From contig NZ_LHZA01000154.1 in assembly GCF_001580535.1 (NCBI RefSeq), positions 1-64,000 of the forward strand: a stretch of DNA of 64,000 nt, written 5' to 3'. A program made the translations under genes and the position numbers. Each line of letters begins with the position of its first letter. Within the stretch, counting starts at the first letter, position 1. Shown piece by piece: positions 4,047 through 61,424 of the stretch. The notes under the pieces are model-generated. The model did no database searches. It worked only from the letters and a program-made list of their open reading frames with translations, and had not been told where the DNA came from. Origin of the DNA: Acetobacter cerevisiae (GTDB lineage Bacteria > Pseudomonadota > Alphaproteobacteria > Acetobacterales > Acetobacteraceae).

Positions 4047-4759
4047 GTTCAGTGTCTCACACGCCGCGCGTCGTCCTGCTGGATATTGAGGGCACAACGG
4101 CCCCGGTCTCCTTCGTGCATCAGGTGCTGTTCCCTTATGCCCGCACCCATCTGCCCAAGCTGGTGGCCGAGCAGGCGCATGACCCGGTGGTGCATGAGCA
4201 GCTGGAAGAAATTGCCCGTCTGGCCCCCGGTGTGCCCCCCATGGAACAGCTGACGCGCTGGATGGATGAGGATGCCAAAGTCGGCCCTCTTAAAGCACTT
4301 CAGGGCATTGTGTGGGGGCAGGGCTATCAGCGCGGTGAACTGATTGCCAGCCTGTATCCGGATGTCGTGCCAGCGCTGGAAGCCTGGTCCAGAGCCGGGG
4401 TGACGCTGGCGGTCTATTCTTCCGGCTCTGAGCCTGCGCAAAAGCTGATTTACGGCCATACGCAGCAGGGCGACGTCACACCGCTGTTCAGCCGGTTTTT
4501 TGATCTGCGTGTGGGCGGCAAGAAAGACGCGAAGAGCTATCGGAATATCCTGCTGGAAACCGGCTGGAAGCCTGAGGACGTGCTGTTTCTGTCCGATGTG
4601 ACGGCGGAGCTTGATGCCGCAGCGGATGCCGGGTTGCAGGTCTGCCAGATTGTCCGCCCGGATGATGGCACGGTGGCAGGCAAGCGCCATCCGGTGGCGG
4701 CCACCCTGCCGGATGCGGCGCGTCTGTTCGGTCTGCCCGGTGCGGAGCCGCAGGCGTGA
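4043..4759 (+). CDS. mtnC: Enolase-phosphatase E1
   Basis: HAD-superfamily bifunctional enolase/phosphatase making acireductone, the substrate of MtnD, from the diketo phosphate. HAD motif I appears as VVLLDIEGTTAPVSF, motif II as YSSGSEPAQ, the motif III lysine in VGGKKDAKSYRN and motif IV in VLFLSDVTAELDAAADAG. 238 residues, normal length. Overlaps mtnD by ATGA and ribF by GTGA, tying methionine salvage translationally to a riboflavin kinase gene, which is an unusual join. Confidence 0.92.
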   Translation: MSSVSHTPRVVLLDIEGTTAPVSFVHQVLFPYARTHLPKLVAEQAHDPVVHEQLEEIARLAPGVPPMEQLTRWMDEDAKVGPLKALQGIVWGQGYQRGELIASLYPDVVPALEAWSRAGVTLAVYSSGSEPAQKLIYGHTQQGDVTPLFSRFFDLRVGGKKDAKSYRNILLETGWKPEDVLFLSDVTAELDAAADAGLQVCQIVRPDDGTVAGKRHPVAATLPDAARLFGLPGAEPQA

Positions 4760-12091: not shown

Positions 12092-13609
12092 GTGCCCCAT
12101 GCTCTGCTGTCTCTGATAACTTATGTCCCACTGGCGGGTGCGCTGGTAGCCTGGCTTTTTTGTCGGGGAGGGGAGGCGCAGGACCTTCTGGCCCGGCGGA
12201 TCGGGCTGGGGACCAGTCTGGCCGTTCTGGCGCTGAGCGTTGCGTTGTGGTGCGGTTTTAACCCCGCAACACCGGGCCTGCAGTTTGAAACCCGGCTGGG
12301 CTGGGTCTCGGATGCCGGGATCTCCTACCATACCGGGGTGGATGGCATCTCGCTGGTGTTTATCCTGCTCACAGCGTTTCTTACCCCGCTGGCCATGGCG
12401 GCGGGAGCGCGCAGCATCCGCACGCAGGCACGGGAGTTTGTGACGGCTATGTTGTTGCTGGAAACGGCGCTCTTCGGCCTGTTTTCCGCGCAGGACCTGC
12501 TGCTGTTCTATGTGTTTTATGAAGCAACGCTGATCCCCGCGAGTTTGATGATCGGCATCTGGGGCGGCCCCAAACGGGCATGGGCCTCGTTGCAGTTCTT
12601 CCTGTTCACGTTCGGCGGCTCGCTGTTCATGCTCATCGCTCTGATCGTGATGTGGCAGCAGGCAGGAACGACGGATATTCCGGCACTGATGCAGGCAGGC
12701 TTTTCCCATTCCCTGCAAGGCTGGCTTCTGCTGGCCTTCCTGCTGGCGTTTGGCGTGAAGCTTCCGCTGTTTCCCCTGCATGCCTGGCTGCCGGATGCGT
12801 ATTCTGAGGCTCCGGCTCCGGCCTCCGCCATGCTTTCCGGCGTGCTCTCCAAAACCGGGGCGTATGGTCTGTTGCGCTTCGGTGTTCTGATGTTCCCGGA
12901 TGCTGCCCATCTGTTCGCCCCCTATGTGCTGGCGCTGGGCGTGGTGGCGATTCTCTATGCCGCTTTTGTCGCTTTTGCGCAGACGGATATGAAGCGGGTG
13001 ATTGCCTATTCCTCCTTCTCCCATATGGGCATGATTGCCGTAGGCTTGTTCACGCTGACGGCGGAAGGCATTGATGGCGCCATTTTCCAGATGCTCTCGC
13101 ATGGCGTGGTGATTGCAGCACTGTTCTTCTGTGTTTCAGCGGTCGCCTTGCGGTCGGACACGCAGCAGATTTCTGCTCTGGGGGGCGTGGCCCGGCAAAT
13201 GCCGGTGCTTGCTCTGCTGACCATGCTGTTCACCATGGCCAATATCGGCCTGCCCGGCACCGGCTCCTTTGTGGGGGAGGTGCTGGTGCTGATGGGGGCG
13301 ATTCACGTCTCCTTCTGGGTTGCGCTGCTGGCCGGGGGCACCATGATTATGGGGGCGGTGTATATGCTCTCCCTGTATCGTCGGGTGCTGTTTGGCGGTG
13401 TGCAGGGGGCGGTGCATCTGCTGCGTGACCTGAGTGTGGGGGAAATTGCGGTGCTGGCTCCGCTGGCGCTTGTCACACTCTGGATGGGGATTCACCCCGG
13501 CAGCTTCACCCGCCTGTTTGACCCGGTGGTGATGCAGGCCATGCATCATGGCACTCTCACAGCGACAGCCTCTCTGCCAGACGCCACGCTGCATCTGGCA
13601 GCCCGGTAA
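12092..13609 (+). CDS. nuoM: Solitary NADH-quinone oxidoreductase subunit M (NuoM)
   Basis: Antiporter-like membrane subunit of complex I. The 505-residue protein keeps the charged channel residues: Glu in FYVFYEATLIPASLMIG, Lys in GVKLPLFPLHAWLPDAYSEA, Lys in QTDMKRVIAYSSFSHMG, His in LSHGVVIAALFF and Glu in GTGSFVGEVLVLMG; about 13-14 membrane helices. GTG 12092 is the only sensible start in this frame and has a weak ribosome site. No other nuo gene is adjacent: mutL precedes it and a convergent exporter follows, so it is an orphan. It could serve a split complex I or another membrane complex. Confidence 0.88.
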   Translation: MPHALLSLITYVPLAGALVAWLFCRGGEAQDLLARRIGLGTSLAVLALSVALWCGFNPATPGLQFETRLGWVSDAGISYHTGVDGISLVFILLTAFLTPLAMAAGARSIRTQAREFVTAMLLLETALFGLFSAQDLLLFYVFYEATLIPASLMIGIWGGPKRAWASLQFFLFTFGGSLFMLIALIVMWQQAGTTDIPALMQAGFSHSLQGWLLLAFLLAFGVKLPLFPLHAWLPDAYSEAPAPASAMLSGVLSKTGAYGLLRFGVLMFPDAAHLFAPYVLALGVVAILYAAFVAFAQTDMKRVIAYSSFSHMGMIAVGLFTLTAEGIDGAIFQMLSHGVVIAALFFCVSAVALRSDTQQISALGGVARQMPVLALLTMLFTMANIGLPGTGSFVGEVLVLMGAIHVSFWVALLAGGTMIMGAVYMLSLYRRVLFGGVQGAVHLLRDLSVGEIAVLAPLALVTLWMGIHPGSFTRLFDPVVMQAMHHGTLTATASLPDATLHLAAR

Positions 13610-52605: not shown

Positions 52606-54402
52606 TTGCCACAGAACCGCGCTCATGGTGTTATCCGCCCGTCTTTACATCCCGTCTGGAGCCAGAGTTCCATTTTCACCTCTTTTGTTCTTTGCAGTTT
52701 GTTCGTGCTGTTTGTGGTGGCGGGGGTTCTGGCTGTGCTGCCAGAGCGCCTGTTGCGGCGGTGCGCTCCGTGGCGTTCTGAAATTCTGGCCGGGGTCTGG
52801 GGTTGCTTAGGCCTGCTGGCGCTGGTCGGCGCGGTGTGCAGGCTGGAAGGCGGGGTGAGCTGGTTCCCGGTGTTCGGCATGGATGGGCCGGCTCTGCCCA
52901 TGCTGGTGCTGCTGGCCTTTGCCGGCGGACTGATGGGCGTGGGGCAGCGTGGGCTGGCCTGTGCGCTTACCGGACTGGCGTTTCTGGCTCTTTCTCCCTT
53001 GGTTTTCGGGCTCCTTGCAGGCACGGCGCTGGTGTTGCTGGCCGACCGTGGGCGGCAGGGCGTGTGTCTGCCTTTTGCTGTGATTCCGGCCTGTATTCCC
53101 GCAGATAGTCCTCTTTCTCCGCCCGCCTTGTGCCTGATGGTGCTGTTGCTGGGCTGGGCGGTTTCTTCACAAAAAGGGCCGGAGGCTGTGTTGCCTGCGG
53201 GCATTGGCCTGTTTCTGCTTGGGCGGTTGCTGGCGGAAGTCGGTGTTCTGCCACCGGTGCAGCAGGGCTTGCTGATGGTCAGCGGTGGCGCTGTGGCGCT
53301 CTGGGGTGCCGTGCAGGCTGTGCGCAGTCCAGCGGCCTGCGGTATCCTCGCCGGTGTGGCGAGTGCTGGTTATGGCGGGCTAGTGGTCATGCTGACACTG
53401 GCTCTGGCTGCTCCTGTGAAAGGCGGAGAGTTCTTTCGCACAGCAACACTTCTGGCAACGGGTGCGCCGTTTCTGGCGTTGCTGGCAGCCCTCTGGCTTT
53501 CCCGGCAGGACGGCGGATTGTTTACGCCAAACAGTGCTGTGGCGCAGGCCCGTGGTAGTCGGCTTGCGCTGGGAGGCAGCCTTTTGCTGCTCTCCGCTGT
53601 GCCGCCGCTCGGGGGCTTTTCTGTTTTCTGGAGCCTGCTGAACGCGGGTGAAGTGGCCGCTGCCCATACGCATCCTGCGCAGGCTTTGTGCCTTTTACTG
53701 GTTCTGGTCGGGGCCGCCTGTGTCATGGCGCTGGGGATGATCGGTCTGTTGCGGGTGGGGTTTGCAACCTTTGTGCAGCAAATGCCCGCTTCCGTGCCAC
53801 AGGGCAGCCGAACGGCCGATGATGCCCCATCTCTCAGCAGCGTGCTTCTGCTTCCGGCATGGATCTGCGCAGGGGGTGCGGTGCTGATTACGTTACTGCC
53901 TGGTGGCTGGCTGGCGCTGGTGGACCATCTGTTTGCAGGGGATACACCGCGTGACTTTGCCTGGAAGACGCTGGCGCGGGTGCAATTTGCCGGATCTGAT
54001 ATCACGTTGACGCCTGTGTTTTCGGTGCTTGCACTAGCGGTCTGTGTGGTGGGTGCCGGTTTGCTGGGGCGAGCGTTTGGCGTGTTCCCACTACGTCCGG
54101 CGGTGCCCGGTGCAGCCGCATGGCGAGACGGTGCCCCAGTCGTCCAGCAGGATGACGAAGTGCAGTCTGCTCCAATTTCCGAGCCCTCCATGCCTGTGGT
54201 CTGGACCGCATTCGGGGTTCTGCTGGGTGCTGCGGAGCAGAAGCCAACCGACTGGCCTGTGGTGGAAAAGACGAGCGCCGGGGCGCGGTATCTTCAGGCT
54301 GTGCTGTTCAGAACCGTGGCATGGTGTGAGGCGCAGGGCATGGTTCTCATCCTGCTCTTTCTGGGGGCCGGGCTGCTGCTGGGGCTGTTTGCTGCAAAAT
54401 GA
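52606..54402 (+). CDS. HyfB-like membrane subunit, divergent and shortened
   Basis: About 598 residues and about 15 membrane helices. It resembles HyfB/NuoL antiporter-like subunits in overall layout (N-terminal FVLCSLFVLFVVAGVLAVLP and SEILAGVWGCLGLLALVGAV) and in SAVPPLGGFSVFWSLL (about residues 330-345), which matches PPLNGF in HyfB. The lysine/His motif of the proton channel (K..PLHxWLPxAHPxAP) is missing and I see no lysine inside a predicted helix. TTG 52606 is the furthest sensible start; GTG 52705 is an alternative, so the N-terminus is uncertain. First of a six-gene coupled set; its stop overlaps the next ATG (ATGA). Confidence 0.6.
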   Translation: MPQNRAHGVIRPSLHPVWSQSSIFTSFVLCSLFVLFVVAGVLAVLPERLLRRCAPWRSEILAGVWGCLGLLALVGAVCRLEGGVSWFPVFGMDGPALPMLVLLAFAGGLMGVGQRGLACALTGLAFLALSPLVFGLLAGTALVLLADRGRQGVCLPFAVIPACIPADSPLSPPALCLMVLLLGWAVSSQKGPEAVLPAGIGLFLLGRLLAEVGVLPPVQQGLLMVSGGAVALWGAVQAVRSPAACGILAGVASAGYGGLVVMLTLALAAPVKGGEFFRTATLLATGAPFLALLAALWLSRQDGGLFTPNSAVAQARGSRLALGGSLLLLSAVPPLGGFSVFWSLLNAGEVAAAHTHPAQALCLLLVLVGAACVMALGMIGLLRVGFATFVQQMPASVPQGSRTADDAPSLSSVLLLPAWICAGGAVLITLLPGGWLALVDHLFAGDTPRDFAWKTLARVQFAGSDITLTPVFSVLALAVCVVGAGLLGRAFGVFPLRPAVPGAAAWRDGAPVVQQDDEVQSAPISEPSMPVVWTAFGVLLGAAEQKPTDWPVVEKTSAGARYLQAVLFRTVAWCEAQGMVLILLFLGAGLLLGLFAAK

Positions 54403-55436
54403 CGCATGAACTCACATGGGGCTGGGCTTTTGCCTGCCTGCTGGCTCTGGCCCTGCAAACTGTTCTGATGGTTCTGGCAGCCCCCTGGTTTAGTGGCTGG
54501 GTCAATCGTCTGGCAGGTCGTCTGACGGGCGAGCATCGTTTTCTGGCCGGTGGTCGCTGGCAGGATATTCATCATCAGTTCCGCAGGCCGGCCCTGCGCC
54601 AGCGCGGGGATGGGCTGAGTAGTCTGGCCTGCCGGGGCGCGCTGGTTCTGGCTGTTTTTGCAGCGTGCATGACACCGGTTTTCACGCTGGTTCCGGCAGG
54701 TTTTCCCGCACCGGGCTTTTTCCTGCTGTGTTCAGCACTGGTCGGCGCATCGCTTCTGCTGGGCCTGCCGCTGGTGGTGCAGGGTGGCACAACAACTCTG
54801 GCGGGGTATGCGGCGCTGCTGGCGGAGAGCCTGCTCTTGCCTGCGCTGGTGCCGGTGCTGGTTATGGCGGGTGGTCAGGATTTTTCCGCCTTTCTTGCGC
54901 ATTTACGCCAGCTTTCCCCGGTAGGGGATGGCGCACCGTTTGTGCTGATGGGCGTCGCTCTCTTTCTGGTCACGGCATGGAAAGGGCGGCAGGCCGGTGC
55001 GGAACTGCCGTGCCAGCTTTCAGGGGCTGATCGTGCCTTGTGGATGCTGGCTACGGATTGCGTGCAACTGGTCTGGATTACACTGGCCGGGGACGTTGCA
55101 TGGGCCAGTAGCCTCGCTCTGCCGGGTGAAAGCGGTGTGGAGCCCTGGCTCGCGCAATGTCTTGCAGGCGGCGCGTTCTGGGTGGCGAAGCTGGCGATTG
55201 CGGCTCTTCTGCTGGCAGGCACGCAGTTGATGGTGCTCACTTTCCCGCGTCGGGCGCGTGTGCGTCTGGCTGCGGTGTTCCTGCTGGGGCTGCTGGCCTG
55301 GCAGGTCGCGTATGCGGGCCAGTCCGGTGCAATCGGGCAGGACAGAACGGCCTCCGCGCAGGATGAGCAGGATGAGCAGGATGAGCAGGATGAGCAGGAT
55401 TCTGCATGGAGTGATGAAGGGAACGCAACACCATGA
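54399..55436 (+). CDS. HyfC/NuoH-like membrane subunit
   Basis: 345 residues, about 8 helices. The first cytosolic loop RFLAGGRWQDIHHQFRRPAL aligns in position with the GPxxxQxYxDxxKL loop of HycD/HyfC, and GAELPCQLSGADRALWMLATD with the ExxEGPLxEYSG..L.KWG segment. The second glutamate of that motif is Gln here (CQLSG). The C-terminus carries a DEQ tripeptide repeat from a 9 bp tandem repeat. The NuoH-like subunit normally connects the quinone site to the membrane arm. Overlaps both neighbours by ATGA. Confidence 0.65.
   Translation: MTHELTWGWAFACLLALALQTVLMVLAAPWFSGWVNRLAGRLTGEHRFLAGGRWQDIHHQFRRPALRQRGDGLSSLACRGALVLAVFAACMTPVFTLVPAGFPAPGFFLLCSALVGASLLLGLPLVVQGGTTTLAGYAALLAESLLLPALVPVLVMAGGQDFSAFLAHLRQLSPVGDGAPFVLMGVALFLVTAWKGRQAGAELPCQLSGADRALWMLATDCVQLVWITLAGDVAWASSLALPGESGVEPWLAQCLAGGAFWVAKLAIAALLLAGTQLMVLTFPRRARVRLAAVFLLGLLAWQVAYAGQSGAIGQDRTASAQDEQDEQDEQDEQDSAWSDEGNATP
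55362..55400 (+). repeat. Nonanucleotide tandem repeat (GATGAGCAG)4 + GAT
   Basis: Four perfect copies plus GAT (39 bp), encoding Asp-Glu-Gln repeats in the acidic C-terminus of the HyfC-like protein. The unit keeps the frame. Confidence 0.93.
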
Positions 55437-56659
55437 CGCTTGCTGTCATTCTGGCGCCGCTGCTGGCGCTGTGTGTTGTGGCCCGAGGCATTGGCTTTTT
55501 GCCCGCGCTGGGCGTGGTGACAGCGGTGGCCATGCTGGTAGACGCGCGGGAACCTTTGCAGGAATTTGGCGCGGTCTGTGTGGTGCTGTTTTCCGTGCTG
55601 CCGGTCTGGTTTGTCAGCCGATATCAGGATGATGGCGCACGCGAGCGCACCGGCCCGATGGTGCCGTTTCTGGCGCTCGGGCTGATGGTCATTCTGCAAC
55701 TTGCTACGGGCACGCCTGCGGCTATGGGGGAAGCTCCCGGCCATGCTGGAGCGGCCTATTTGCCTGCCGGACTGTGCGTGGCTCTCGCCGGACTGGTGGC
55801 CGTAACCTGTCGTCAGGCTATGGTCTGGCAGTGGGCTGGCCTGCTGGCCTGTGTGGATGGCGTCATGCTCTCCGGCGTCATTGAAAATCAGGTCATGGTG
55901 GTGGGCGTTACAGCGCTGGCGGGCTGCGTGGTGGCTCTGCTGGGTGGCATGTGCGTGCATCGCGTCATGCTGCGGGTTGCGGTGGCACCGGCGCAGGACG
56001 GGGCAGGGGCTGAGCGCCCTTCCGCCCAGTCCGCAGGGTTTGAACTGGGCGATGTTGAGCAAACAGGCCCGGAACCGCGAGGGCTGGGGCCCGAAGCCGT
56101 GGTGGCCCCGCGCATCTGGACAGAAGCTGAAGCAGCGGCTGAGGACGAAGAGCCGCTTCCCCGGCCAGACAAGGCGGCAAAAAAAGCCGTACCTTCCGAT
56201 GGAGAAGCAAAGGCAGACGTTGATCAGCCGCCAGCAGGGACGGGTGCGCTGCAGGATAAGAGGGCTTCGGATGCAGAAACGGTCGCCTCTGATGATGATG
56301 CTGAAACGGTGAAACAGAAGGACGTCCCGGACGCCAGTCATGACACTGCTAAGCCGACAGAAACGGAAAGCATCGAGACCGGCGTAATGAAAACAGACCC
56401 TTCTGAAGACGCCCTCTCTGAAGACAAGGCGCAGGACCGTAAGGCTGGGCTGAATCCAGCGGCTCCTGATGCTGAAGCCTCTGAGAAAATACCGGAACAC
56501 ACATCGGACACGGCGACCTCCAGCGCGGCGGATCAGCCCGAGCCGTTTGGCCCGGAAGAGAAAGAGCCTGAGGCCGAGCCAGTGCCGCGCACGCCGGAAA
56601 TGATTGCGCGGGATGTCTGGTTGAGAGGCTATCTGACCGAGCGCGGGAGGGACGCATGA
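55433..56659 (+). CDS. HyfE-like membrane domain fused to a long acidic tail
   Basis: 408 residues. The first 185 or so are hydrophobic with 6-7 helices (AVILAPLLALCVVARGIGFLPA, GVVTAVAMLVDAREPLQEFG, VVGVTALAGCVVALLGGMC), the size and layout of HyfE (about 216 residues). From about residue 195 to 395 follows an Asp/Glu/Ala/Lys/Pro low-complexity region (AEAAAEDEEPLPRPDKAAKK and so on), ending in RTPEMIARDVWLRGYLTERG. This tail is not a feature of HyfE that I know and is probably disordered and cytosolic or periplasmic. Overlaps both neighbours by 4 bp. Confidence 0.55.
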   Translation: MTLAVILAPLLALCVVARGIGFLPALGVVTAVAMLVDAREPLQEFGAVCVVLFSVLPVWFVSRYQDDGARERTGPMVPFLALGLMVILQLATGTPAAMGEAPGHAGAAYLPAGLCVALAGLVAVTCRQAMVWQWAGLLACVDGVMLSGVIENQVMVVGVTALAGCVVALLGGMCVHRVMLRVAVAPAQDGAGAERPSAQSAGFELGDVEQTGPEPRGLGPEAVVAPRIWTEAEAAAEDEEPLPRPDKAAKKAVPSDGEAKADVDQPPAGTGALQDKRASDAETVASDDDAETVKQKDVPDASHDTAKPTETESIETGVMKTDPSEDALSEDKAQDRKAGLNPAAPDAEASEKIPEHTSDTATSSAADQPEPFGPEEKEPEAEPVPRTPEMIARDVWLRGYLTERGRDA

Positions 56660-57777
56660 CCGTTCCTGTTTTTCTGGCTGCTCTGGCCTTTGCTTGGCCT
56701 TTGCTGGGGGCTGCCATTGTCATGGCCGCGCCCACACCGCGCAGCCGCGAGATTGCCATCTGGATGGCCGGGGCTGGCTGTGCGCTGGCTGTGGCCGTGT
56801 TCCTGTTCCCCGCGACCAGTGCCGCGGCGGAAGGCTGGGATGATGACCCGGTCCAGCGGGCAGGCCGTGTGATGTTGGCGTTTGGCCTGCTGCTGACGGT
56901 GATGGAAAACGGCATCTTGCAGGACCGTCTGTTGCGCGGTCTGCCACACATTTCGACGGCACTGACGGGGCTGGCCTGCGTCGCCCCGGACCCGATTATC
57001 GGGCTTGGTATTCTGGAAGCCGCACTGGCTTACGGCGTGTTTGTGTTCAGCCGCCCCGCCGGGCAGGCGCGGGCCGGATGGGCGCTGGTGCGCACCGGGT
57101 CTGTGGGAATTTTTCTGGTGCTGTCTGGCCTGCTGTTGCCGTCAGGTTCTGCACCAGCTGGCCTAATGATGGCCTGTGGTCTGGTCATGCTGGCGGGGCT
57201 GACGCCGTTTGGTCAGTCATGGCGTGAGGAAAATGATACCTATCTGTTCCTGCCATTTGCCGGGGCTGCCCTGCTGCTGTCCATGCGGCTGCGGGTGCAT
57301 GGTGGGGAGGCGTTTGAGACGGCGCTGGTTGCGGCGGGTCTGGCCTCGGTCTGGCTGACAGCCTGCGCGGGTCGCTCCGATGAGGGGCTGCGCCTGTTCC
57401 GCACCTTTCCGTCTGCTCTGGCCCTGATGGCGGTTGGGGCAGGCGCCGATGTGGCGGCGTTGCTATTCCTGTGTGGCTGGTGTCTGGCCGGGGGCAATCG
57501 CTCTGGCCGGTCATGGGCGGCGCGGGCGCTGGCCTGTTTCCCGCCGGGTGCGCCGTTTGTGGGCTGTCTGCTGCTGCTCTCCATGCTGAGCGACTGGTCC
57601 TGGAGTGTCACGGTGCTGACCGTGGCCGGGATTTTGTGCGCGGTGGTGCGTTCCGTGCCGGTGGAAGGGTTCACGCAGGATTTGTGGCCTGAAGATGCTG
57701 CGGGTCGGGTGGCCTGTTCCGTGCTGGTGCTGACCGGATTTCTGGTGCCGCTGGCCATGATGCTGGGAGCGTTCTGA
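56656..57777 (+). CDS. HyfF-like membrane subunit with no lysine
   Basis: 373 residues, about 10-11 helices, against about 525 for HyfF. The segment AGLTPFGQSWREENDTYLFL (residues about 180-199) sits where HyfF/NuoN have K-x-G-L-x-P-x-H-x-WLPDAHSEAP, so the channel Lys is Leu-like and the His is Gly. I count no Lys in the whole protein. Identification rests on gene order, hydrophobicity and this one segment, so it is moderate. Overlaps the upstream gene by ATGA and the downstream one by a single base (TGATG). Confidence 0.55.
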   Translation: MTVPVFLAALAFAWPLLGAAIVMAAPTPRSREIAIWMAGAGCALAVAVFLFPATSAAAEGWDDDPVQRAGRVMLAFGLLLTVMENGILQDRLLRGLPHISTALTGLACVAPDPIIGLGILEAALAYGVFVFSRPAGQARAGWALVRTGSVGIFLVLSGLLLPSGSAPAGLMMACGLVMLAGLTPFGQSWREENDTYLFLPFAGAALLLSMRLRVHGGEAFETALVAAGLASVWLTACAGRSDEGLRLFRTFPSALALMAVGAGADVAALLFLCGWCLAGGNRSGRSWAARALACFPPGAPFVGCLLLLSMLSDWSWSVTVLTVAGILCAVVRSVPVEGFTQDLWPEDAAGRVACSVLVLTGFLVPLAMMLGAF

Positions 57778-59276
57778 TGGATGCTGTAAGCCTGATCCGC
57801 GCCGGGCAGGAGACGGACACCCCCTGGCGCTTCCGGCTGGATGAACTCGGCTGGCGCGATATGGTCGCAGCGCTTGAAAAGGATACGCTGCCGTTTGTCG
57901 GCCTGTGGTGTGACGGCACGGATGTGCATGCCCTGTTCATGCTCTCCCCCACGCAGCCGCTGGCAGCCACGCTGGCACTCGAGGATGGGCGGTATCCGGC
58001 ACTTTCCCCCGTAAGACCGGTCTCGAGCCTATATGAGCGCAGAGCGTATGATCTGTATGGTGCGGAAGGCATGTGGGCGGTCGATGTGCGCTCGCTGGTG
58101 GACCATGATGTCTGGTCCGCGACTGCACCGCTGGCCGCCACCCCCGGTCCTGCTGGCGGCCATAAAGGGCAGATCGGCTTTCAGCCGTCTGACGCCTTGC
58201 TGGCGGCTGGCGGTGTGAACGCGGGCGCGGGGCCAGCAACCGGCGGCATGGAAACGCCCTTGCATGTGGCGATGGCCGTGGCGGGCGAGACCATCGCGCA
58301 GGCGGAAACGGTGTCCGGCTATGCGCATCGGGGGCTTGCGGCCCGCTGGCGGAATAGCCGTCTGGAGGATGCCTGCCGGTTGAGCGGGCGTGTGGCGGCC
58401 GGGTGCTCTGTGGTGCATCAGGCGGCCTTCTGTCAGGCCGTTGAAGCCGCGTGTGGTAGTGCTGTGGGGCCGGAAACGTCGCTGATCCGTGTGGTGTTGC
58501 TGGAACTGGAACGCATTCTGCTGCATCTGCACACGCTGGCCGGGCTGGCGCGGCGGGCCGGAGCGCTGGTGGTGGCGTCGCGTTGTGCGTGGTTTCGGGA
58601 ACAGTTGCTTGCAAAGTCTGCGCCGATCATTGGGTCGCGTTTGCTCATGGACCATTGTGTGCCCGGCGGCACCAGTTTGCGTGAGGCGACAGGTCTGGGC
58701 GATCTCTGCATCAGTCTGGCAAAGCTCGGTGAAGAGATTTATCCCGGACTGGCCACGCTCTGGCGCACCTATCCAGCACTTTCTGTTCGTCTAAGTGGGG
58801 TAGGCAAGGTGGATGCTGCCCTGCTTGACCGTGTGGGGCTGGATGGGCCGGTGGCACGAGCCAGTGGGAAGGATTGTGACGGGCGGCGCACGCAGCGCGT
58901 TTACCAGACCCTCTGGCGGCTGACCGCTGGCCGACACGGCGGCACGGCGGAAGATCGGGCTCTGGTTCTGCTGGATGAAATTGGTGAAAGCCTGCGCATG
59001 CTGGGCGAAGCAGGCCCCCGGTTGGGGCTGACTGCCGGTGGCCGTGTGGACCTTACTCTTGAGGATGGAGAAGGGCTGGGGATGACGGAAGGCCCGTGGG
59101 GTAACGTCCTCTATTGGGTGCGTCTGCATGCTGGCCGCGTCGCGCAGGTCTTTGTGCATGACCCGGCCCCTGCCGCGCTGATGGTCTTTGAAGAGACGCT
59201 GGCAGGGCAGGATGTGGCGGATCTGGCTCTCGTGCGCCAGTCCCTCGGGGTGAATGCGGCGGCACTTGATGGCTAG
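57777..59276 (+). CDS. HyfG-like (NuoC-NuoD fusion) large subunit lacking the NiFe site
   Basis: 499 residues. The NuoC-like part ends with YPALSPVRPVSSLYERRAYDLYG (Tyr86-Gly95 region), the ERExxDLFG signature. The NuoD-like part has VSGYAHRGLAARWR and GRVAAGCSVVHQAAFCQAVE; group 4 hydrogenases have RVCGICSxxH here, so the first Cys is Ala207 and only Cys210 remains. The C-terminus ADLALVRQSLGVNAAALDG lines up with the region that ends in DPCxSC in hydrogenases, and both Cys are gone. Thus no [NiFe] centre can form. The Tyr of the NuoD quinone site is also not apparent. About 60 residues shorter than HycE. Confidence 0.78.
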   Translation: MDAVSLIRAGQETDTPWRFRLDELGWRDMVAALEKDTLPFVGLWCDGTDVHALFMLSPTQPLAATLALEDGRYPALSPVRPVSSLYERRAYDLYGAEGMWAVDVRSLVDHDVWSATAPLAATPGPAGGHKGQIGFQPSDALLAAGGVNAGAGPATGGMETPLHVAMAVAGETIAQAETVSGYAHRGLAARWRNSRLEDACRLSGRVAAGCSVVHQAAFCQAVEAACGSAVGPETSLIRVVLLELERILLHLHTLAGLARRAGALVVASRCAWFREQLLAKSAPIIGSRLLMDHCVPGGTSLREATGLGDLCISLAKLGEEIYPGLATLWRTYPALSVRLSGVGKVDAALLDRVGLDGPVARASGKDCDGRRTQRVYQTLWRLTAGRHGGTAEDRALVLLDEIGESLRMLGEAGPRLGLTAGGRVDLTLEDGEGLGMTEGPWGNVLYWVRLHAGRVAQVFVHDPAPAALMVFEETLAGQDVADLALVRQSLGVNAAALDG

Positions 59277-59303
59277 AGAACAGGACAGGAAGGGTTTGCA
59301 GTC

Positions 59304-59816
59304 ATGGGGCTGATCCGTGCAGTGTTTGATGCCGCTTTCCGGCAGGGTGGCCCGCGTCTGAAACCCGTTGGGCCGCGCTGGCCGTTGCTGCTGTTCCATG
59401 TGGATACCGGTGGTTGCGGCGGGTGCGGGATGGAGTTGGAAGCCCTGGCGACTGGCCCGTATGACATGGAAGGCGCAGGCTTTGGGTTTGTGCAGTCTCC
59501 ACGCTCTGCGGATGTGTTGCTGGTGACAGGCACGCTCACCCGCACCATGGCCCCCGTGCTGGAAGCGGCGTGGCAGGCTATGCCGAAACCCAAAGGGGTG
59601 ATTTGCGTGGGGGGCTGCGCCATGGATGGCGGCTATTTCCCGGAAAATTATTCCGTTCTGGGTGGGCTGGACCGCAAGGCGAAAATTGACCTGCAAATTC
59701 CCGGTTGCCCACCATCCCCCCAGCAGGTGCTGGACGGATTGTGTTCTCTGTTCGGGCAGCGCGTGCCGCCCGCCAGAGGGGCTCAGGCTGAGGGGTCGTC
59801 CTCAACCTCTTCCTGA
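59304..59816 (+). CDS. HyfI/NuoB-like small subunit with intact [4Fe-4S] ligands
   Basis: 170 residues. Cluster (N2-type) ligands are seen: Cys38 and Cys41 in DTGGCGGCGMELEAL, Cys105 in CVGGCAMDGG and Cys135 in IPGCPPSPQQVLDGL; TGTLTRTM matches the family TGxLTR. This is the best-conserved subunit of the operon. AGGAAGGG lies upstream of ATG 59304, 27 bp after the HyfG-like stop. The last 34 bp overlap the convergent pssA gene. Confidence 0.82.
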   Translation: MGLIRAVFDAAFRQGGPRLKPVGPRWPLLLFHVDTGGCGGCGMELEALATGPYDMEGAGFGFVQSPRSADVLLVTGTLTRTMAPVLEAAWQAMPKPKGVICVGGCAMDGGYFPENYSVLGGLDRKAKIDLQIPGCPPSPQQVLDGLCSLFGQRVPPARGAQAEGSSSTSS

Positions 59817-60688
59817 AGATCTTCAGCCGCTTTTTTCAGCTTGAGAAAGCTGAAATGGCTGAGGGGCAACAGGATCATATAAATCACGCCAGCGGCGGCC
59901 AATGCGCCCCAGGGGTCTGCTACCAGCACGGCTGTATAAGCCCCCGTGCCCAGCATGACGGGCAGCACATACTGTGCCGGCACCTTGAAGTTCTTGAAAG
60001 ACCAGACCCGCAACGTGGACACCAGCAGAAATGCTGTGCTGATGAGTGTGAAGGCAGGCAGCCAGGGCAGGCGGGTCAGGCGATAGAGCCAGTCGATCCC
60101 CAGCTTTTGCGCTTCCAGCCCCAGAAAGAGCGGGAAAAGCGCCAGACCGGCCCCGGCAGGTGCTGGAACGCCCGTAAAGAAGTTACTGGCGTATTTCGGC
60201 TTTTCTTCCTCACCATCCAGCGTGGCGTTAAAGCGCGCCAGACGCAGGGCCATACAGACCGTAAACATCAGGCACGGCAGAAACGCGTAGCGTCCGCCAT
60301 CCTGCAACGCCCAGAAAAACAGCAGGAACGAGGGGGCTACGCCAAAGCAGACAAAGTCTGAAAGGCTGTCAAACTCTGCGCCAAACCGTGTGGAACCCCG
60401 CAGCAGGCGCGCAATGCGCCCGTCCAGCCCATCAATAAAGGCGGAAAGCAGTAAGGCGATCCCGGCTGCCTGAAAGCGGCCTTCCACAGCAAAGCGCATG
60501 CCCGTCAGGCCCGAGCAAAGCCCCAGCATGGTGAGAATGTTGGGGATCAGCCGGTTGAAGGACGGGCCACGGATTTTTTTGGTCCGCACCCGTTTGCGCA
60601 GCCGTTTGCGGCGCAGCCCTCGGGGGGTAAGCGGTGCCTGAGATGGCGAGGCAGCGGGAAGCTGCGCTGGTGTCTGCGGATCTGTCAC
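59783..60688 (-). CDS. pssA: CDP-diacylglycerol-serine O-phosphatidyltransferase
   Basis: Integral membrane CDP-alcohol phosphatidyltransferase making phosphatidylserine. The signature is complete: DGLDGRIARLLRGSTRFGAEFDSLSD. A basic N-terminus (RGLRRKRLRKRVRTKKIRG) precedes the first helix; 301 residues, with about 8 helices. GTG 60688 starts four bases after the psd stop, so psd-pssA are coupled. The acidic C-terminus (EDLQEEVEDDPSA) lies in the 34 bp overlap with the HyfI-like gene. Confidence 0.93.
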   Translation of the reverse strand: MTDPQTPAQLPAASPSQAPLTPRGLRRKRLRKRVRTKKIRGPSFNRLIPNILTMLGLCSGLTGMRFAVEGRFQAAGIALLLSAFIDGLDGRIARLLRGSTRFGAEFDSLSDFVCFGVAPSFLLFFWALQDGGRYAFLPCLMFTVCMALRLARFNATLDGEEEKPKYASNFFTGVPAPAGAGLALFPLFLGLEAQKLGIDWLYRLTRLPWLPAFTLISTAFLLVSTLRVWSFKNFKVPAQYVLPVMLGTGAYTAVLVADPWGALAAAGVIYMILLPLSHFSFLKLKKAAEDLQEEVEDDPSA

Positions 60689-60692
60689 GGGA

Positions 60693-61382
60693 TCAGAGGC
60701 GCGCCATCACGGTTTCACCACCCACCATGGTCTGGCCGGCTGAAACCAGCGGTTCCACGCCCGGCGGCAGATACAGGTCCGTGCGGGAGCCAAAGCGGAT
60801 CAGGCCGAAGCGTTCACCAGCCTCCACCTTCATGCCTTCGGACACGCTGCACACAATACGGCGGGCAATCAGACCGGCAATCTGCACCACGGCCATCATT
60901 CGGCCATCGGGCAGGGTCAGGCTGAGGGCATTACGCTCGTTCAGTTCAGACGCCTTATCAAGGCTGGCATTCAGGAACTGGCCGGGGTGGTAGGCAATGC
61001 GCGTCACCGTGCCAGCGGCGGGCATGCGGTTGATATGCACATCCAGCACGGACAGGAACGTGGCAATGCGCCAGACCGGAGCCGTGCCCATGCCCAGCTC
61101 GGCCGGGGGAGCAATTTTTTCAACAGACACCACACGGCCATCAGCCGGGGCCACAGCAACATCGCTGCGGGCAGGGGTGGTGCGTTCCGGGTCCCGGAAG
61201 AAATACAGGCAGAAGCCAAAGAACAGGCCGCTGGCGGTGCCCACATGGCGCAGCACCGGGCAGGAGAGCTTCTTGCCCAGAAAACGTGTGACCAGCGTGG
61301 TCGCGCCAGAGGCGAGCAGGAACGGCTTCGCTTCCGGGTGGGGGGGCGCCAGAACAAGTTTGAAAGAGTCGATCAGGGACAT
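60693..61382 (-). CDS. psd: Phosphatidylserine decarboxylase, short type
   Basis: Makes phosphatidylethanolamine from phosphatidylserine. The 229-residue proenzyme from ATG 61382 (MSLIDSFKLVLAPPHPEA) belongs to the short class common in alphaproteobacteria; the self-cleavage Ser that becomes the pyruvoyl group is in LIRFGSRTDLYLPPG. SVLDVHINRMPAAG and YFFRDPERTTPA are conserved. Upstream gene of pssA in a two-gene phospholipid operon. Confidence 0.93.
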   Translation of the reverse strand: MSLIDSFKLVLAPPHPEAKPFLLASGATTLVTRFLGKKLSCPVLRHVGTASGLFFGFCLYFFRDPERTTPARSDVAVAPADGRVVSVEKIAPPAELGMGTAPVWRIATFLSVLDVHINRMPAAGTVTRIAYHPGQFLNASLDKASELNERNALSLTLPDGRMMAVVQIAGLIARRIVCSVSEGMKVEAGERFGLIRFGSRTDLYLPPGVEPLVSAGQTMVGGETVMARL

Positions 61383-61424
61383 GGAGGGGTCCTCATGCAA
61401 ATGGCCGGAGTGTGGGAAGAAAAC

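Follow-up and report, generated by a model that had tools for sequence, protein, structure and literature searches.

Loss of ion-path residues from a Hyq/Ehr-type six-subunit complex across a clade of Acetobacteraceae

A six-gene operon occupies positions 52606-59816 of a 64,000-nucleotide stretch of Acetobacter cerevisiae DNA (contig NZ_LHZA01000154.1, assembly GCF_001580535.1; hereafter the window), where it encodes relatives of the subunits of respiratory complex I and of group 4 [NiFe] hydrogenases. Comparison with canonical six-gene relatives revealed that a whole clade of Acetobacteraceae carrying this operon has lost the ion-path residues that those relatives keep, and it is this clade-wide loss, read from aligned sequences, that is new here. 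We tentatively explain the product as a derived six-subunit complex of the Hyq/Ehr (energy-converting hydrogenase-related) type that would be anchored in the membrane and use its [4Fe-4S] cluster as a redox relay or redox sensor, with no pumping and no coupling to ion translocation, a reading to which we give a little less than an even chance.

The genes lie in the order B-C-E-F-G-I, as in the six-subunit Hyq complex. The first five overlap successively by 4, 4, 4 and 1 bp, and 27 bp separate G from I. An initial annotation, made from the sequence of the window alone, had described six intact, coupled Hyf-like genes, a description that the frames, overlaps, gap and homologies confirm. The subunits are referred to below by their letters.

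52606..54402, + strand: B, HyfB/HyqB-like (NuoL/MrpA-type) membrane subunit, 598 aa, ion-path Glu/Lys residues gone (start read as TTG at 52606; start codon tentative)
54399..55436, + strand: C, HyfC/NuoH-like membrane subunit, 345 aa, acidic cytoplasmic loop mostly gone
55433..56659, + strand: E, HyfE-like membrane subunit with an acidic C-terminal extension, 408 aa
56656..57777, + strand: F, HyfF-like (NuoL/M/N-type) membrane subunit, 373 aa, zero lysines
57777..59276, + strand: G, HyfG/HyqG-like large subunit (NuoC-NuoD fusion), 499 aa, without the NiFe ligand set
59304..59816, + strand: I, HyfI/HyqI/NuoB-like [4Fe-4S] small subunit, 170 aa

Ion-path residues and identity of the membrane subunits

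Particular Glu and Lys residues of antiporter-type subunits make up the ion path. Canonical relatives keep them without exception: a Glu and three Lys in B (10/10 rows of the alignment), a Glu and two Lys in F (11/11) and six positions of the C loop (10/10). In the window's clade, by contrast, the aligned Glu of B is found in 0/60 members and the three aligned Lys in 3/60, 0/60 and 0/60, both aligned Lys of F are missing throughout (0/65 and 0/65), and the six loop positions of C are kept in 1, 0, 6, 0, 1 and 18 of 62, the position kept in 18 being a Glu. Because the F alignment is weak and the B, E and F proteins of Gluconobacter have no detectable similarity to canonical subunits, these counts over 60-65 rows deserve less trust than the Acetobacter-only ones, which are 0/31 for the Glu and 2/31, 0/31 and 0/31 for the Lys of B, 14/33 for the Glu and 0/33 and 0/33 for the Lys of F, and 1, 0, 2, 0, 1 and 9 of 31 for the C loop. 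Eleven subunit entries, two of them never called, were excluded as bad calls in one of the ion-path comparisons. We use 'eroded' for every row that is non-canonical in its membrane subunits, some rows being so labelled on F and C alone after the B call was dropped.

In the window itself, F has no lysine at all and B has none inside its hydrophobic segments. A count of lysines in hydrophobic segments, which does not depend on alignment, gave none in B of 24/60 members and one in 23/60, and none in F of 47/65, against 3-6 (B) and 3-5 (F) in canonical rows. The proposal in the initial annotation that erosion extends to the membrane channel is thus upheld for the clade, with one correction: F of the window keeps E121, midway along its fifth helix, at the position of the aligned Glu of transmembrane helix 5, a residue retained in 15/65 members.

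That Glu is one of several observations that speak for a working enzyme, still coupled to ions through replacement residues and acting on a substrate other than H+. Acidic residues are still present in the hydrophobic segments of B, C and F, lysines occur there in some members, the fold is intact in the models, and canonical Hyq has H2-linked phenotypes despite its lack of NiFe motifs, as reported in the sections on Hyq of PMC3357923. Set against this reading are the absence of lysine from both aligned F sites in every member and its rarity at those of B, the largely missing C loop, and the short B (393-450 aa) and F (362-363 aa) proteins of four Gluconobacter loci; we consider it unlikely. 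Named carriers of the operon include Gluconobacter oxydans and Neokomagataea thailandica, and across six such loci measured B spans 393-450 aa and F 362-376 aa.

A tree of G was used to place the loss. Eroded rows make up one side of a branch (56 rows) with a Shimodaira-Hasegawa-like approximate likelihood ratio (SH-aLRT) support of 97, in a tree that comes from a quick search, has several long branches and leaves out nine near-duplicate rows. This branch adjoins canonical Acetobacteraceae copies (L184, L191, L192 and L212), and the window's clade falls within the canonical six-gene group. This position suggests that the ion-path residues were lost once, inside Acetobacteraceae.

In searches with single proteins, G matches Complex1_49kDa (1.1e-15) and I matches Oxidored_q6 (4.2e-27) in Pfam, and B, C, E and F have zero Pfam matches at E<=1. 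In a canonical six-gene operon from another alphaproteobacterial family (L060), B, C and F match Proton_antipo_M or NADHdh with E-values of 2.9e-39 to 2.2e-53. Profile-profile comparison of the Acetobacter set with the canonical set by HHalign gave matches along the diagonal (probability, P, of 99.8 for B-B, 99.7 for C-C, 93.9 for E-E and 100 for both G-G and I-I); F-F reached a P of just 13.3, which is suggestive only, yet was F's top match. With the Gluconobacter set, matches to canonical subunits were confined to C, G and I. Searched against the PDB, the C profile matched formate hydrogenlyase subunit 4 (4e-22) and the G profile had formate hydrogenlyase subunit 5 as its top match (1.4e-57), each with one canonical row in the profile, while a B profile built without canonical rows matched weakly (best E 0.017).

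AlphaFold models were obtained for F (predicted local distance difference test score, pLDDT, 83.4; predicted template modelling score, pTM, 0.85) and, with middling confidence, for B (pLDDT 73.3, pTM 0.76). The F model superimposes on chain L of mycobacterial complex I (VIA Z 32.8, root-mean-square deviation, rmsd, 3.4, 364/373 residues) and the B model on chain C of Escherichia coli formate hydrogenlyase (VIA Z 29.5, rmsd 4.0, 502 residues), so that both resemble the antiporter-type subunits of complex I, Mrp and formate hydrogenlyase. The folds found by structure search are of the Nuo/Hyf type. Unrelated membrane proteins are ruled out for Acetobacter B and C by profile matches (and the B model), and for F by its model only; homology of F to antiporter-type subunits is supported by that model, the sequence signal being weak. 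Membership of the complex I and group 4 hydrogenase superfamily, as first annotated, therefore finds agreement among Pfam, profile comparison and models.

Two further features of the membrane subunits were noted. The C-terminus of C carries a short DEQ repeat (55360-55400, + strand) that is reduced or missing in close relatives, and the tail of E (55990-56659, + strand) is long, acidic and fast-evolving; among same-genus loci, a long E tail is found only in L031-L033 and, separately, in L044.

The large subunit and its [4Fe-4S] partner

At the four positions that ligate the NiFe site in hydrogenases, G of the window has A, C, N and A, and Cys occurs in 2, 7, 0 and 0 of the 65 clade members. 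Canonical large subunits (n=11) already carry S in 11/11, S in 9/11, S in 11/11 and G in 11/11 at these positions, and a control, the true formate hydrogenlyase of an Acetobacteraceae genome (L209 in G353), which was excluded from the clade counts, has Cys at all four. No match to HypD was found in the window's genome (G000) or in six canonical genomes tested; of 18 genomes, two have one, namely G353 and G011. A ferredoxin subunit is likewise missing, by Pfam, from the window operon, and from the canonical operon L060. Since canonical six-gene relatives show both traits, the loss of NiFe cysteines and the lack of a ferredoxin subunit are, on these alignments and searches, ancestral. The initial annotation had listed the NiFe site, the pump lysines and the ferredoxin subunits together as missing; of these three, only the lysines were lost in this clade. 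A NiFe hydrogenase is ruled out by the missing ligand set and the lack of HypD in the window's genome.

Two genomes deserve mention here: G353, of 1.9 Mb, combines its formate-hydrogenlyase-type large subunit with HypD, and G011, a 1.7 Mb metagenome-assembled genome (MAG) of a sheep-abomasum Acetobacter, has an eroded operon together with a HypD gene split over two frames.

Elsewhere in G, a shell of charged residues is 97-100% conserved among the 65 members (H184, R185, R205, E243, E245, R246, H250, R288, D292, R361, D368, R370 and R394), and canonical rows share it, except for K in place of R185 in 9/11 and a single R in place of H184. Three Cys columns corresponding to the conserved Cys reported for HyqG, which were placed by spacing from the published description and without the Azorhizobium sequence itself, are kept in 1, 0 and 0 of the 65, as compared with 6/7 canonical rows outside Acetobacteraceae and 2, 2 and 1 of 4 inside; a nearby Cys column is kept in 38/65 members, the window included.

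The initial annotation had suggested that the complex might exchange electrons with ubiquinone near its cluster. The His and Tyr positions of NuoD, which we take to be quinone-facing, retain these residues in 1/65 and 0/65 members, respectively, and are E and A in the window. The ubiquinone idea is weakened by this lack of conservation, which argues against a quinone site of the complex I type and is compatible with a site of another type.

The small subunit, in comparison, has kept its cluster ligands intact. All four Cys (38, 41, 105 and 135 in the window) are present in 57 of the 58 clade members whose small subunit was available, the exception being L194, and in 11/11 canonical rows; Glu44 is found in 58/58 and 11/11. 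At nine loci (L187, L198, L200, L204, L206, L207, L208, L210 and L211) the I gene does not directly follow G. It lies about 0.9 kb from G in L204 and L207, about 4 kb away in G356 (L200), and elsewhere in the genome for the others, which rules out a loss of the small subunit. An I-type match was found in 11/11 genomes checked and outscores the NuoB-type match in the 10 that have both. One out-of-frame row (L049) in the underlying alignment (A4) was removed from the local hidden Markov model and retained in the genome-wide small-subunit search.

Selection, distribution and genomic surroundings

Ratios of nonsynonymous to synonymous substitution (dN/dS), computed on the operon genes alone and without control genes as a baseline, were 0.000-0.17 and 0.03-0.25 over the six genes in comparisons with the two nearest species. 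They were lowest for F (0.006 and 0.029) and I and highest for E, and fell between 0 and 0.31 in all pairs computed, with dS saturated in distant pairs. These ratios are not neutral, place the operon under purifying selection and rule out random decay, as the initial annotation had argued; retention across genera points the same way. The same gene set recurs in Acetobacteraceae, with all six genes called in 57 of the 65 clade loci. Seven loci lack a neighbouring I, and in L047 B and C were not called and were found further upstream by tblastn. This locus, from a goat-abomasum Acetobacter MAG (G015), has about 1.5 kb between its HyfC-like and HyfE-like genes. G itself is present in 37/37 same-genus genomes, that of the window included (one as a fragment and three split in drafts), the nearest named matches of the window's G being two A. 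malorum records that are 98 and 95% identical, and it is retained in Acetobacter MAGs of 1.5 and 1.7 Mb.

Most relatives have open frames, with exceptions. Three JCM drafts (L022, L023 and L024) have G broken into two frames, likely through sequencing error because A. okinawensis has an intact G in another assembly, and the HyfC-like gene of L039 (G013, a same-genus genome in few contigs; 2.66 Mb contig) is split over two frames at about 4318-4540, its near relative L062 being open. These broken copies, together with fast divergence and the absence of the operon from some Acetobacteraceae (G292 and G438, for example), are what one might expect of a relic in the course of being lost. The low dN/dS of all pairs, the intact second copy of A. 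okinawensis and the retention of the operon in reduced genomes argue otherwise and make a relic improbable.

A first tally of 264/299 genomes includes canonical copies and genomes with NuoD only. A recheck of 35 genomes by the position of the match found an operon-type gene in 30, NuoD only in G368, G419 and G438, nothing in G292 and the true hydrogenase in G353. The window's genome carries a separate complex I (nuo cluster), and this, with the homology of the subunits, would be in keeping with a module that serves respiratory complex I as an accessory or in its assembly. However, operon G is the sole Complex1_49kDa match in 7/14 genomes tested, G438 has complex I without the operon, and G292 has neither. 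The distribution of the operon is thus independent of that of complex I, as judged from gene content, and since the large subunit persists in seven genomes that have no complex I, an accessory role is ruled out by distribution and has only a very slight probability in our estimate.

Convergent to the operon, pssA and psd lie beside it on the opposite strand (59783-61400, - strand). The commonest neighbour clusters read as these two genes, at 82 and 66 of up to 118 loci, many of which are a single place counted twice, and such clusters adjoin no canonical locus. A NADH-oxidising module was found neither among the six genes nor among the flanking genes scanned, and is present, by eye, in the separate nuo cluster. 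In that cluster, on another contig, nuoL leads straight on to a nuoN-like gene without an intervening nuoM (again by eye), and a free-standing nuoM (12092-13609, + strand; NDH_I_M, E 1.2e-161) adjoins mutL in the window; the genome has just three Proton_antipo_M matches in all. 'nuo13' and 'nuo14' operons are distinguished in a section of PMC10715153, and the arrangement seen here may correspond to that distinction.

Possible function and comparison with known systems

With subunit homology, cluster ligands, the charged shell of G, and antiporter folds that lack the aligned lysines all read from sequences and models, the observations are consistent with a complex that no longer has its known energy coupling but still has its cluster. 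G and I would pair as a one-cluster heterodimer resting on C, and B, E and F would act as a membrane foot and not as a pump; the single cluster might then trade electrons with a partner, with no ion translocation coupled to it. We favour a relay or sensor because the cluster Cys are near-invariant, the I gene is kept even when unlinked and the charged shell of G is conserved, and a non-pumping one because every canonical row retains the ion-path residues and a single clade has lost them as a group. Low dN/dS, the antiporter folds, and retention both without complex I and in reduced MAGs lend this reading further support.

Several observations weigh against it. At least three lysines remain in the hydrophobic segments of B in 7/60 members and of F in 3/65. 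B, E and F of the Gluconobacter set lack detectable similarity to canonical subunits (P <1). No gene for a redox partner was recognised beside the operon among neighbour clusters that were read by eye and scanned in part. Finally, the pocket residues of canonical G (S, mostly S, S and G, and a Cys near the C-terminus) are not conserved in the clade, and a structural role fits this about as well.

Such a role defines the main rival, which we rank below the relay or sensor and regard as a possible, less probable, explanation: the complex would serve as a scaffold that organises or stabilises other membrane proteins, its cluster being merely structural. Pocket and ion path are both without their conserved residues, and there are parallels in the family. 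A degenerate bc1 complex and a COX1-like protein have been kept in Acetobacteraceae, with structural roles proposed, and the degenerate bc1 complexes are discussed as possible stabilisers of complex I in the relevant part of PMC10715153. Yet complex I, the proposed client of bc1, is absent from the seven genomes that keep operon G without it, and near-invariant cluster ligands and a conserved charged shell are not easily accounted for by a scaffold.

Returning to the relay or sensor, the job of the operon is probably new, since the metal active site and the usual pump residues have been lost and one cluster kept. On the broadest interpretation, this clade turned a whole machine of the complex I superfamily into a non-pumping, NiFe-free assembly with a single [4Fe-4S] cluster that is selected even without complex I, and which would constitute a new functional class, most boldly a membrane redox sensor; our confidence in this proposition is evenly divided. 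If true, it would add a functional class to the complex I superfamily. The way in which complex I couples redox chemistry to ion movement is a matter of continuing debate, and a clade that keeps antiporter folds and a cluster while dropping the charged residues offers an evolutionary 'dead-pump' series for studying that coupling. In addition, it would be misleading to annotate these genes of industrial Acetobacter and Gluconobacter strains as subunits of a NADH dehydrogenase or of a hydrogenase. Strains of both genera are culturable, and PMC8602642 describes a knockout collection of G. oxydans B58, so that a deletion phenotype should be attainable. We found no paper on the Acetobacteraceae six-gene operon in the open-access (PMC) literature, and the terms tried did not find the operon genes in the main text seen of three G. 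oxydans papers (PMC8602642, PMC12041372 and PMC5756330).

Among known systems, complex I (Nuo) shares with the operon homologues of the NuoB, NuoC/D, NuoH and NuoL/M/N families, whereas the operon has no NADH module and does not conserve the quinone His and Tyr of NuoD. Subunit families and folds are likewise shared with Hyf/Hyc (hydrogenase-4/formate hydrogenlyase), from which the operon differs in having no NiFe ligand set, no HypD match in the window's genome and no ferredoxin subunit. The archaeal membrane-bound sulfane reductase (MBS/Mbx, 6u8y) is a relative with a solved structure among the sequence and fold matches. Ehr complexes are described, in the portions of PMC6349859 and PMC10284858 that deal with them, as group 4-related, without NiFe ligands and with Mrp-antiporter-like subunits, and are suspected of ion translocation (PMC6349859). 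The window's clade resembles them in its group 4-related large subunit without NiFe ligands and in its modelled antiporter folds, and departs from the expectation for Ehr in having lost the known ion path. The nearest characterised relative is the Ehr-type endo-hydrogenase Hyq (hyqRBCEFGI) of Azorhizobium caulinodans, which matches the operon in its six structural genes and in their order and is presented, in the sections of PMC2650096 and PMC3357923 devoted to it, as a six-subunit core version of complex I, with a HyqG that is a NuoC-NuoD fusion without both CxxC motifs and a HyqI with four cluster Cys. Compared with Hyq, two of the three HyqG-type Cys columns are gone from 65/65 clade members and the third from 64/65; and, unlike the canonical six-gene relatives, the clade has lost the ion-path residues and most of the HyfC loop.

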